From contig VGSJ01000027.1 in NCBI GenBank assembly GCA_016875015.1, forward strand, positions 1 to 32,826: a stretch of 32,826 nt of DNA, read 5' to 3'. This DNA comes from Deltaproteobacteria bacterium. Lineage in GTDB: Bacteria; Desulfobacterota; Desulfobaccia; Desulfobaccales; 0-14-0-80-60-11. Below the pieces are notes generated by a model. The model searched no databases and was not told the DNA's origin. It saw only the letters and a list, made by a program, of their open reading frames with translations. A program made the translations under genes and the position numbers. This document shows positions 8,907 through 32,826 of the stretch, in pieces (position 1 is the first letter of the stretch; each line of letters starts with the position of its first letter).

Positions 8907-8935
8907 TTGACTATACCAAGGCATTGCGCCATGAT
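8907..8935 (+). promoter_or_regulatory. Candidate sigma-70 promoter of the nuclease-methylase pair
   Basis: TTGACT (8907-8912) lies 17 nt from CATGAT (8930-8935), which matches 4 of 6 positions of the -10 consensus. Transcription would begin near 8942, after the first in-frame ATG (8924) and 45 nt before ATG 8987. If real, it rules out the upstream start of the nuclease gene. Confidence 0.4.
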
Positions 8936-8986
8936 GGGCTTTATCAGTTTAGTTTTCTGAAAATAATACCGAAGGATATTGCATCG

Positions 8987-9595
8987 ATGAAACCGGGATA
9001 TCGCCAAGAGGTTCTCAATGTCGTCCTGGCCCAAATTCTCCAGGAACGGGGAGTGGTTTCTGTTCCCGAAAAAGTCGTGAGAGAAGTTCTCTCGATGCCC
9101 GGAAAGCGCCGTATGCCCGATATCATGGTGGATTTTATGGGGTTACGGACGGTGATAGAGGGGGAAGTGGATGACCAACCGGATGCCAAGAGCCGCTCCC
9201 TGGAATCCGCCGAGAAGCGGGTGGAAGAGGGGATTGCTCATATCGGGGTAGCCGTAATTTACCCGGCGTTTCTGCGGCAACTTGAACTCGGCGCATTGAA
9301 ATCTCAAATGGCGGAGTGCCATTATGAAATCGCGGTAGTTGCTGAATCACAGTTCGGGGAACGCAGTTTTAATCATGGCGATGCTAACTATCTGGCGGAA
9401 GCTCTGCGAAAAACCTTTGACCAACTGGTCAAGGAAGATGTGGTGTCCCAGGCCGTTGCCCTCTTAGATGCCGGGATTGACAAGTTAGCCGCCGCGGTGC
9501 GTCATTGCCCCGGTTTTGTCCCGACCGCCGCCCAGGTTTTAGGAATTCGGGCTTTGCCCCCCAGGAAAAAGACCAAGGCTGAGGCGACCGAGTGA
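8987..9595 (+). CDS. PD-(D/E)XK-like nuclease candidate paired with a DNA methylase
   Basis: This 202-residue cytoplasmic protein has no signal or membrane segment. Residues about 42-62 read RRMPDIMVDF then TVIEGEV: a Pro-Asp on one strand and Glu-Gly-Glu on the next. That is the geometry of a PD-(D/E)XK nuclease core with E-X-E in place of D/E-X-K, as in BamHI. Helical segments before (RQEVLNVVLAQILQ) and after (Lys/Glu-rich) fit the fold. ATG 8987 is preferred over 8924 because it has AAGGA upstream and lies downstream of the predicted promoter. The stop overlaps the methylase GTG by 4 bases, so the two are co-translated. The likely role is the restriction or target-cleaving half of a restriction-modification pair, but the nuclease call rests on a short motif only; a DNA-binding accessory protein is the alternative. 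Confidence 0.6.
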   Translation: MKPGYRQEVLNVVLAQILQERGVVSVPEKVVREVLSMPGKRRMPDIMVDFMGLRTVIEGEVDDQPDAKSRSLESAEKRVEEGIAHIGVAVIYPAFLRQLELGALKSQMAECHYEIAVVAESQFGERSFNHGDANYLAEALRKTFDQLVKEDVVSQAVALLDAGIDKLAAAVRHCPGFVPTAAQVLGIRALPPRKKTKAEATE

Positions 9596-11883
9596 CCAAT
9601 AAGATTCCCCCGCAACAGGCCGACGCCATAAGCCGGATCAGCGGTCTGGTTTTAGTAAATGCCATGATATTCCAGGAGATTCTGGCATATCATGATGATC
9701 GGGTTGATTCCCTGGAAAAAACTTTGGATGAGCCCAATCCCTTAGGTTCATTCAGCGCCCATTGGAGATTTATTCTAGAAGATATCAACTATTACCCCAT
9801 CTTCTATCTGGCCAGGGACATCATTATCAATCTAACCGCGGACGCGGATATTATCGCGGCGCTCAAGAATTTGGCAGGAACGGCTCAAAGAATAGTTAGT
9901 ATGCGGGCTGCCTTGCGCCACGACCTGATGGGACGCGTTTACCATCGGTTGTTGGCTGATAAAAAATATCTTGCCACCTATTACACCAAGATTCCACCAG
10001 CAAATCTGCTTCTTAAACTCGCCCTGGATTATGACAATTTCCCGGTCGCCTGGCAGGATTTGGGCCAAATTTCTCAACTCCGCATTGTTGACCTGGCTTG
10101 CGGCACCGGCACCTTGCTGATGGCCGCGGCCGATGCCATCGCCGACAACTATTTGCGAGCTTCGGCGGGACATGGTTTGGTTCCTGACCTGGATGGTTTG
10201 CAGAAACGGTTGGTAGAGGAAATCATTCATGGTTATGATGTGCTGCCCTCGGCCATCCATTTGACCGCCTCGACCCTGGCCCTCCGCGCCCCGCAAATCC
10301 CGTTTGAAAAAATGAACTTGTTCAGCCTGCCCATGGGAGGACCGGCAATCCGCCTGGGAAGCATTGATTTTTTGGATGGCAAAAGGGTGGCGGTCCATCG
10401 GGATTTGATCGGCGCTGATGTGGAAGCCCGCCAAATGGGCGGGAAGGGGGCTAAACGGGTCAGCACAAACTTACCTGATTTGGACCTGTGCGTGATGAAC
10501 CCCCCTTTTACGCGCAGCGTGGGCGGAAATTTGCTCTTCGGCTCTCTGCCGGAAGCGGACCGGAAGAAAGCCCAGGAAAAGCTCAAAAAAGTAGTCCGGC
10601 GTCGGGAGCTACAGGCCAACATCACCGCGGGCTTGGGTTCGGTGTTTGTGGCCATTGCGGATCGTTATATCAAACCTGGGGGCCGCATCGCTTTAGTGCT
10701 CCCCAAAGCGGTGATTTCAGGGGTGGCTTGGGAACCGACGCGGGAAATTTTGCGCACTAAATACCAAATAGAATATCTGGTAGCCAGTCATGACCCGCGG
10801 CAATGGAATTTTTCGGAAAGCACGGATTTAAGCGAGGTCCTTTTGGTGGCTCGCAAAGAGGACCCCAGGAGGCCATCGCCGCCCAGGTCAACCGTGGCCT
10901 TGAACCTCTGGCGCAACCCGGCCACTAATTTTGACGCCCTGACGGTTTGTCAGACGCTCAGGACCCATACCGCTCCCAATATTCCCACCGGGCAGGGGGC
11001 ATTGGAAGTTTTTGTGGGACATGAAAAATTCGGGGAGGCCATCAGTTATCCCTGGGAGGATTTGAAGGCCTGGGGTTCCTGGATCATGCCCTGTGCCTTT
11101 GCGCAATCCGAACTGCTGCGCGTCGCCTATGATTTGCTGCGCGGGCAGCTTTATCTTCCCGGTTACGGGCAAGTAGGGGAAATCGCCCTGTGCCCCCTGC
11201 ATACTTTCGCCACCCTGGGGCCAGACCGCCGGGATATTCATGACGGTTTTACAGTGGGCAGTCAATTCACCCCATATCCCGCTTTTTGGGGCCATGAATC
11301 CAAGGATGTTTTCAGTATTGCCCAACCCCCCAATGCCTACCTATCGCCTTTGCCAGAGGCCAAGCCGGGCCGAAATCTTCGTTTGGCACAAGAGCTATGG
11401 CCTTCGGCAGGAAATATTTTGATGGCCGAAAGAATGTGGTTAAAGACCCAGCGACTTGTTGCCCTTAGGGTTTCCGAGCGCGTGCTTTCAAATATGTGGT
11501 GGCCGGTTTCTCTAAGGGGCCAATTCGCTCATCAAAGTTTTGAAAAGGCCCTGGCCCTTTGGCTCAACTCGACCTTCGGATTAATTTTGCTCTTGGCCAA
11601 CCGGCAAGAGACTAGGGGTGCATGGGTTGATTTTAAAAAGCCGGTGCTAAGCGAAGCGCCAGTGATTGATTTGCGAACTCTTTCCCCCGATGCGATGGAA
11701 ACCCTGGCCGCGACCTACGATGCGGTATGCGACCAGGGGCTTCGGCCATTTTCCGAAATGGACGCGGACCCGGTGCGGGAGAGGATTGACACGGCTATTG
11801 GTCAGGCTTTGGGTTTGCCGGATATCGCGGTTTTGCGCCGTCTCCTGGCAAGAGAGCCCGTGGTTTGTCTGCGGCGGCTGTGA
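9592..11883 (+). CDS. N6-adenine DNA methylase with TRD-like C-terminal region
   Basis: This protein would transfer methyl from S-adenosylmethionine to adenine in DNA. In the 763 residues, YLATYYT (about 127-132) is the motif-X region, DLACGTGTLLMAA (167-179) is the SAM-binding motif I and NPPF (303-306) is catalytic motif IV. The order X-I-IV is that of gamma-class enzymes such as HsdM and type IIG proteins. After about residue 430 there is a long region with WWPV and ALWLNSTFGLILLLANRQ, resembling target-recognition regions of type IIG or type ISP enzymes, so it may set specificity by itself. No helicase or nuclease motif is seen in it. It starts with GTG overlapping the upstream stop (GTGA). 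No hsdS or hsdR lies nearby. It probably forms a two-gene restriction-modification unit with the 8987 protein. Confidence 0.85.
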   Translation: MTNKIPPQQADAISRISGLVLVNAMIFQEILAYHDDRVDSLEKTLDEPNPLGSFSAHWRFILEDINYYPIFYLARDIIINLTADADIIAALKNLAGTAQRIVSMRAALRHDLMGRVYHRLLADKKYLATYYTKIPPANLLLKLALDYDNFPVAWQDLGQISQLRIVDLACGTGTLLMAAADAIADNYLRASAGHGLVPDLDGLQKRLVEEIIHGYDVLPSAIHLTASTLALRAPQIPFEKMNLFSLPMGGPAIRLGSIDFLDGKRVAVHRDLIGADVEARQMGGKGAKRVSTNLPDLDLCVMNPPFTRSVGGNLLFGSLPEADRKKAQEKLKKVVRRRELQANITAGLGSVFVAIADRYIKPGGRIALVLPKAVISGVAWEPTREILRTKYQIEYLVASHDPRQWNFSESTDLSEVLLVARKEDPRRPSPPRSTVALNLWRNPATNFDALTVCQTLRTHTAPNIPTGQGALEVFVGHEKFGEAISYPWEDLKAWGSWIMPCAFAQSELLRVAYDLLRGQLYLPGYGQVGEIALCPLHTFATLGPDRRDIHDGFTVGSQFTPYPAFWGHESKDVFSIAQPPNAYLSPLPEAKPGRNLRLAQELWPSAGNILMAERMWLKTQRLVALRVSERVLSNMWWPVSLRGQFAHQSFEKALALWLNSTFGLILLLANRQETRGAWVDFKKPVLSEAPVIDLRTLSPDAMETLAATYDAVCDQGLRPFSEMDADPVRERIDTAIGQALGLPDIAVLRRLLAREPVVCLRRL

Positions 11884-21515: not shown

Positions 21516-21633
21516 GTGCGTAATACCGTGTTCCCTTTGAAATGAAACAAACCATCCAGATAACCTATTGATATCTCTCGTAGGGGCGGGTTTCAAACCC
21601 GCCCCTACAAAACGAACACGGTATAAGACGCAC
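21516..21633. repeat. Nested inverted-repeat element (MITE-like)
   Basis: Outer arms GTGCG-TA-ATACCGTGTTC (21516-21533) and GAACACGGTAT-AAGA-CGCAC (21614-21633) are inverted copies. Inside lies a perfect palindrome, GTAGGGGCGGGTTT / AAACCCGCCCCTAC around a single C (21580-21608). The whole is about 118 bp, non-coding and in a gene-free gap, like a small non-autonomous element that has captured or contains a REP-type palindrome. No flanking target-site duplication was identified with confidence. Confidence 0.55.
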
Positions 21634-32522: not shown

Positions 32523-32826
32523 TCCTGAATTGATAATGCCGTGAACCATAACCACAGATTACCTCTTTTTTTCAGACTAATCCCCTCATACCTGAGCTTC
32601 TTATAAAGTTGCCGTCAAACTCATCTTCGACAGTTGTAAAAAAATAGTTTTGGATTATCAGTAAGTTAAGCCATGGCAAAAAAGGGTTGGCACTACATGC
32701 TATTGGAGTCCGGCGTCTGGTCTTCAACTGACCGGTCCCAGAGGGGTGACCGCCGACGGCGGCCGCACCCCGGCGGCGGCGAAGGCGTGGTGGGCCGAAC
32801 CCACCAGGTCGGTGCGCAGTTGATAA
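32523..32826. other. Region after the ATPase gene: palindromes and a possible partial ORF
   Basis: The first roughly 150 bp are AT-rich with no gene. The last 100 bp turn very GC-rich and contain CCGCCG-A-CGGCGG (about 32750-32762) and GGTGGG-CCGAA-CCCACC (about 32787-32805), both palindromic and repeat-like. No terminator was found after the ATPase stop. Confidence 0.5.
32673..32826 (+). CDS. Possible start of a further gene, cut by the window edge
   Basis: ATG 32673 opens a frame that stays open to the end (51 codons). It begins MAKKGWHYMLLESG and then becomes Arg/Gly/Pro-rich across the palindromes. There is no good ribosome binding site and the second half looks like translated repeat, so it is more likely chance than a gene. 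Confidence 0.15.
   Translation, partial: MAKKGWHYMLLESGVWSSTDRSQRGDRRRRPHPGGGEGVVGRTHQVGAQLI

Follow-up and report, generated by a model that had tools for sequence, protein, structure and literature searches.

The window, that is, the whole stretch of 32,826 nucleotides that was analysed, contains two overlapping genes, both on the + strand like all of their features given below. The first gene, R, lies at 8987..9595 and encodes a 202-residue protein which is taken as a candidate PD-(D/E)XK nuclease subunit from its ATG open reading frame, the starts of its homologues, its predicted fold and a weak Foldseek match. Its putative catalytic motif, P44-D45 ... E58-G59-E60, is encoded at 9116..9166, with D45 at 9119-9121, E58 at 9158-9160 and E60 at 9164-9166. 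The motif is defined by conservation across 35 aligned R homologues, in which D45 and E58 are invariant, P44 and G59 are nearly invariant, and residue 60 is E, K or, in one case, D. The original prediction had described a 202-residue protein with a Pro-Asp...Glu-Gly-Glu core, and this core was verified in the 8987-9595 frame. The span given there, 8907-11883, is kept at its end, 11883, but not at its start, since 8907 falls in upstream sequence and the R homologues begin at the ATG at 8987.

The second gene, M, starts with GTG and lies at 9592..11883. It encodes a 763-residue putative gamma-class N6-adenine methylase with a C-terminal recognition domain, as indicated by a Pfam N6_Mtase match (3e-5) and by the fold of a fused homologue. 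The four bases GTGA at 9592..9595 belong both to the start of M and to the stop of R, and it is likely that this overlap couples the translation of the two genes. The N-terminal helical region of M (9592..9921, limits approximate) is connector-like and corresponds to the helices between the R core and the methylase in the fused model. Methylase motif I, DLACGTG, for SAM binding (M residues 167-173; 10090..10110) is invariant in nearly all alignment columns, and motif IV, NPPF, for m6A catalysis (residues 303-306; 10498..10509) in its columns as well. The order of the motifs, DLACGTG followed by NPPF and then by about 450 more residues, is that of the gamma class. The C-terminal target recognition domain and tail (11002..11880, limits approximate) were placed by alignment to CamA and M.BseCI over about 670-700 columns and by a local drop in identity. 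Both the four-base overlap and the 763-residue gamma-class methylase with a tail resembling a target recognition domain had been predicted, and both hold, the latter on the Pfam match, the motif order and the BpuSI and CamA folds.

The immediate neighbours of the pair encode an RND pump, a Memo/PGA_cap protein, an M50-CBS protease, a TPR protein and MlaD, and are housekeeping-like. No HsdS, HsdR or helicase was found among them, and these adjoining genes are unrelated, in agreement with the earlier statement that no HsdS, HsdR, BREX or DISARM partner lies nearby. Clustering of the open reading frames that flank the R-M homologues gave no conserved third partner. GC content is 0.547 for R and 0.542 for M against 0.591 for the remaining window and about 0.62 for the nearest flanks, which bears out the lower GC noticed before.

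Searches of R against Pfam, PADLOC, NCBIfam and the PDB, as a single sequence and as a profile, gave no convincing match. The best PDB profile match, to a viral spike chain at the long helix (E=0.008), was judged to be a chance coiled-helix match. On plasmids, R retrieved two fused R-M proteins of 971 and 947 residues with the canonical PD...EGK (WP_126447967, WP_108610813); in phages it had no match. A scan of the genome collection with an R profile yielded 50 loci from Desulfobacca, Chloroflexi, Planctomycetota, Acidobacteria, Proteobacteria, Sulfobacillus and others. Where at least 1.5 kb of sequence followed R (51 loci), M was directly downstream of R or fused to it in 50, the sole exception being L031, a truncated remainder in Mesorhizobium. 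As R was the query, its company with M is informative. The original prediction would have been refuted by homologues of the small protein standing mostly without the methylase, which is not what was seen; with the same pair or its fusion at more than 50 loci in many phyla, the association is not a chance one. When M was the query, nine close homologues were found in the family and order of the window's genome, the window copy and a second copy in the same genome included, and R was fused or adjacent in all nine. Viral contigs searched with M alone gave none that could be confirmed, the single-sequence patterns being narrow.

The closest homologues are fusions of R and M (L010, 62% identical to M; G191; WP_126447967; WP_108610813), and fused homologues are about 940-970 residues long. 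A tenth, distant M homologue from the same phylum (L094, in G102) is a fusion of 1045 residues whose N-terminus reads RPD...IEAE, an ExE form, which suggests that ExE arose or persisted more widely. Some homologous loci are degraded by frameshifts or deletions (L021, L027, L028, L031, L038 and L047). Degraded loci are usual for restriction systems. Small PIN-domain-like and AbrB-like open reading frames, toxin-antitoxin-like by eye, were observed near the fused homologues L044, L046, L048 and L051 of Competibacteraceae. At L023/L024 one 12.5-kb stretch is present twice on one contig, inverted, which could come from an assembly that is palindromic or from a real duplication in inverted orientation.

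Structure prediction was in line with these assignments. The model of R (pLDDT 88.9) has a helix at 7-20, strands at 46-50 and 53-61, a helix at 67-80, a strand at 86-92 and a long helix at 133-173, which appears to be a PD-(D/E)XK arrangement in which D45 and E58/E60 sit at the hairpin where they would be expected. A predicted fold unrelated to nucleases, which would have refuted the original prediction, was thus not what the model gave. Foldseek matches of the R model were weak, the best being a Holliday junction resolvase of PD-(D/E)XK fold (E=0.048). For the fused homologue L010 the AlphaFold model (pLDDT 85, pTM 0.87) matched BpuSI first in the PDB, with E=2.1e-17 over 1088 alignment columns, followed by CamA (TM 0.70 by target length), M.BseCI, BrxX, BsaXI and DrdV. 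TM-scores of L010 with BpuSI were 0.36-0.39 and the rmsd was 16 A, which would mean that the domains match and that their relative placement differs or is mis-predicted.

In a tree of 48 members, 30 are fused and 18 are split. All 18 split forms belong to one clade of 23 members, and the remaining 25 are fused and ExK without exception. Under parsimony the tree needs five switches between the split and the fused state, and three between K and another residue. Most split loci have ATGA or GTGA overlaps, across independent assemblies and with one viral contig among them, and the split R subunits have charged C-terminal tails of their own. The sisters L087 and L089 have EGE and EGK, respectively, so residue 60 interchanges between sister loci. 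EGE is a lineage variant in a family whose members mostly have EGK. The BamHI-like ExE of the original prediction is therefore right as to E60 and is refined to a variant of the family EGK.

Nei-Gojobori dN/dS for closely related loci was 0.05-0.16 for R and 0.05-0.19 for M. In two more distant comparisons dS was saturated for one gene, and in several others it exceeded 1, so that the ratios of these latter are rough. In the split EGE pair L011/L014 the values were 0.16 for R and 0.19 for M. Both genes are thus under purifying selection, and the low dN/dS of R indicates that it is not drifting as a dead domain. In the close pair L019/L023, M identity exceeds 0.9 across much of the catalytic core and falls to about 0.5 at residues 481-630, a drop that would be expected if recognition differs between the two. 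The window and second-copy M proteins are too diverged to show such a drop clearly.

It is very probable that the pair is a two-subunit restriction-modification enzyme which works like Type IIG (IIC) and is split at the junction of R and M. This reading draws on the fused homologues, the co-conservation of the two genes, the BpuSI fold match, the topology of R, the conserved overlaps, the low dN/dS, the lack of a third gene and the precedent of BamHI for E in place of K. Speaking against it are the missing sequence and profile matches of R, its weak Foldseek matches, the low TM-scores with BpuSI and the broken state of several homologous loci. The candidate restriction cassette of an ExE nuclease and an m6A methylase, as first proposed, is favoured by the homologues and the models alike. 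The C-terminal recognition domain of M would bind a specific sequence, in which M would methylate one adenine, using SAM. R, with one PD-(D/E)XK site in the ExE version, could dock on the N-terminal helices of M and cut unmethylated DNA near the site, and coupled translation of the overlapping genes may keep the subunits balanced. The pair may have a role in defence.

It could also be that the genes form a classical Type II system of two enzymes, R being an endonuclease that acts independently and has a specificity of its own, and M a separate protecting methylase. There are two genes with two start codons, the R model folds confidently alone, and the Type II enzyme BamHI is known to have E for K (PMC4081073). 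However, R has only about 200 residues, and in the model it is mostly one long helix after the catalytic core with no evident recognition domain. Fusion of R and M in most tree members, including one clade that is fused throughout, and the near absence of R without M also argue against independent enzymes, and this explanation is very improbable. It is very improbable that the change from K to E marks a loss, the nuclease half being dead or decaying and M a solitary regulatory methylase. ExE does depart from the EGK of the family majority and several loci are visibly degraded, as listed above, but R is as constrained as M in L011/L014, the P-D, E and flanking R and A positions are kept in EGE members, E and K interchange between the sisters L087 and L089, and both copies in the window's genome are intact. 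It is hardly credible that a fused gene only looks split owing to an error of assembly or a frameshift. Close relatives such as L010 and G191 are fused, and a single base could in theory bring the two frames together, but 18 loci from different assemblies are split, most of them with ATGA or GTGA overlaps, both copies of one genome are split at the same place, and the split R subunits have tails of their own.

The split enzyme working like Type IIG can be compared with known systems. By the definition in reviews, a Type IIG enzyme joins R and a gamma-class M in one polypeptide, of which R is the permanent N-terminal part (PMC4081073; PMC3874165). The window pair consists of two genes with a four-base overlap, and the single polypeptide is found in the fused homologues; the pair is therefore filed as working like Type IIG and not as a strict member. 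An N-terminal PD-(D/E)XK-type cleavage module is predicted, with weak matches in the fold library, and a gamma m6A methylase with a C-terminal recognition domain is present by the N6_Mtase match, the motif order and the BpuSI and CamA folds. With BpuSI, MmeI, DrdV and Eco57I it shares the order of R, helical connector, gamma m6A methylase and C-terminal recognition domain, but it is made of two polypeptides and has ExE in place of the usual ExK. No sequence-level match to a solved Type IIG enzyme was found. HVO_A0006/HVO_A0237 of Haloferax volcanii is a suspected split Type IIG on one replicon (PMC4389544), and its deletion left m6A unchanged (PMC5867850). Compared by description, it is alike in having a separate PD-(D/E)XK R fragment and a gene for M and recognition, whereas its pieces lie apart among transposases and the window genes are adjacent, overlapping, conserved and under selection. 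Other precedents for a split Type IIG were not found in open-access full text, in a limited literature search. With moderate confidence the split arrangement is regarded as new, REBASE being outside the comparison. The original prediction had not recognised the pair as a named system; this stands for the two-gene arrangement, whereas the combination itself is known, as that of a Type IIG-like single-chain enzyme which is here split.

Type I systems (HsdR, HsdM, HsdS) are similar in that a separate R subunit docks on a gamma methylase, as it would in the window pair, and hsdM and hsdS are known to overlap and to be coupled in translation (PMC6158711). The window pair differs from Type I in having neither a helicase motor nor a separate S subunit; its R has 202 residues, and the genes next to the pair are unrelated. 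CamA, M.BseCI, other gamma methylases, BREX PglX/BrxX and MADS MAD2 share the fold of methylase and recognition domain but are without an R partner of the window type. Membership in BREX, DISARM or MADS was rejected, as profile scores are far below the curated cut-offs (MAD2, 29.9 against 720; BREX-6 PglX, 23.8 against 900) and no partner genes lie among the nearest neighbours.

M homologues were found in 6 of the 22 genomes of the window's family, with R present in all six. The pair was absent from the three same-genus genomes searched, two of which are only about 72% complete. The second intact split pair of the window's genome (L009, G000:C100:7536-10425) also has EGE, and its R and M are 54% and 62% identical to those of the window. 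The patchy distribution, the low GC and the two diverged copies would fit horizontal gain of the R-M pair. A clean empty site was not found in the same-genus genomes; G166 and G298, without the pair, have other genes there (patatin and others), so the locus has been rearranged. No evidence was seen for a phage or prophage origin. Among the neighbours of the second pair are TPR and MlaD genes distantly paralogous to the window's (27-29% identity). A repeat at 32619-32826 of the window is present, whole or in part, at 18 places in the genome with 99-100% identity, mostly at contig ends, and is probably a mobile element; on C100 it starts right at the 3' end of the second M gene. Another 106 bases, at 21521-21626, are identical to C100:2936-3041, with an inverted repeat around GTAGGGGCGGGTTTC. 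More N6_Mtase matches, in frames of 845-1429 residues, were observed on contigs C5, C8, C9, C60, C114 and C139 of this genome, so that further Type IIG- or PglX-like systems, several in number, are probably encoded in it.

The R nuclease family is missing from Pfam, NCBIfam and PADLOC, and annotation pipelines probably overlook R. In reviews the R of Type IIG is permanently joined to the methylase, and a conserved separate R occupies the space that lies between Type I and Type IIG. It is possible, though rather doubtful, that these loci represent a conserved branch of restriction enzymes which lack a motor and whose nuclease, as a free and exchangeable subunit, joins a complete methylase. If so, they could restrict with a delay as Type I systems do, without a motor, and would be a living intermediate between Type I and Type IIG; the two diverged pairs of one genome might even share R subunits. 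Sister loci, some fused and others split, with ExK or ExE, make a natural series for testing the docking of R on M, the delay of restriction until host DNA carries its methylation, and the replaceability of the catalytic lysine by glutamate.
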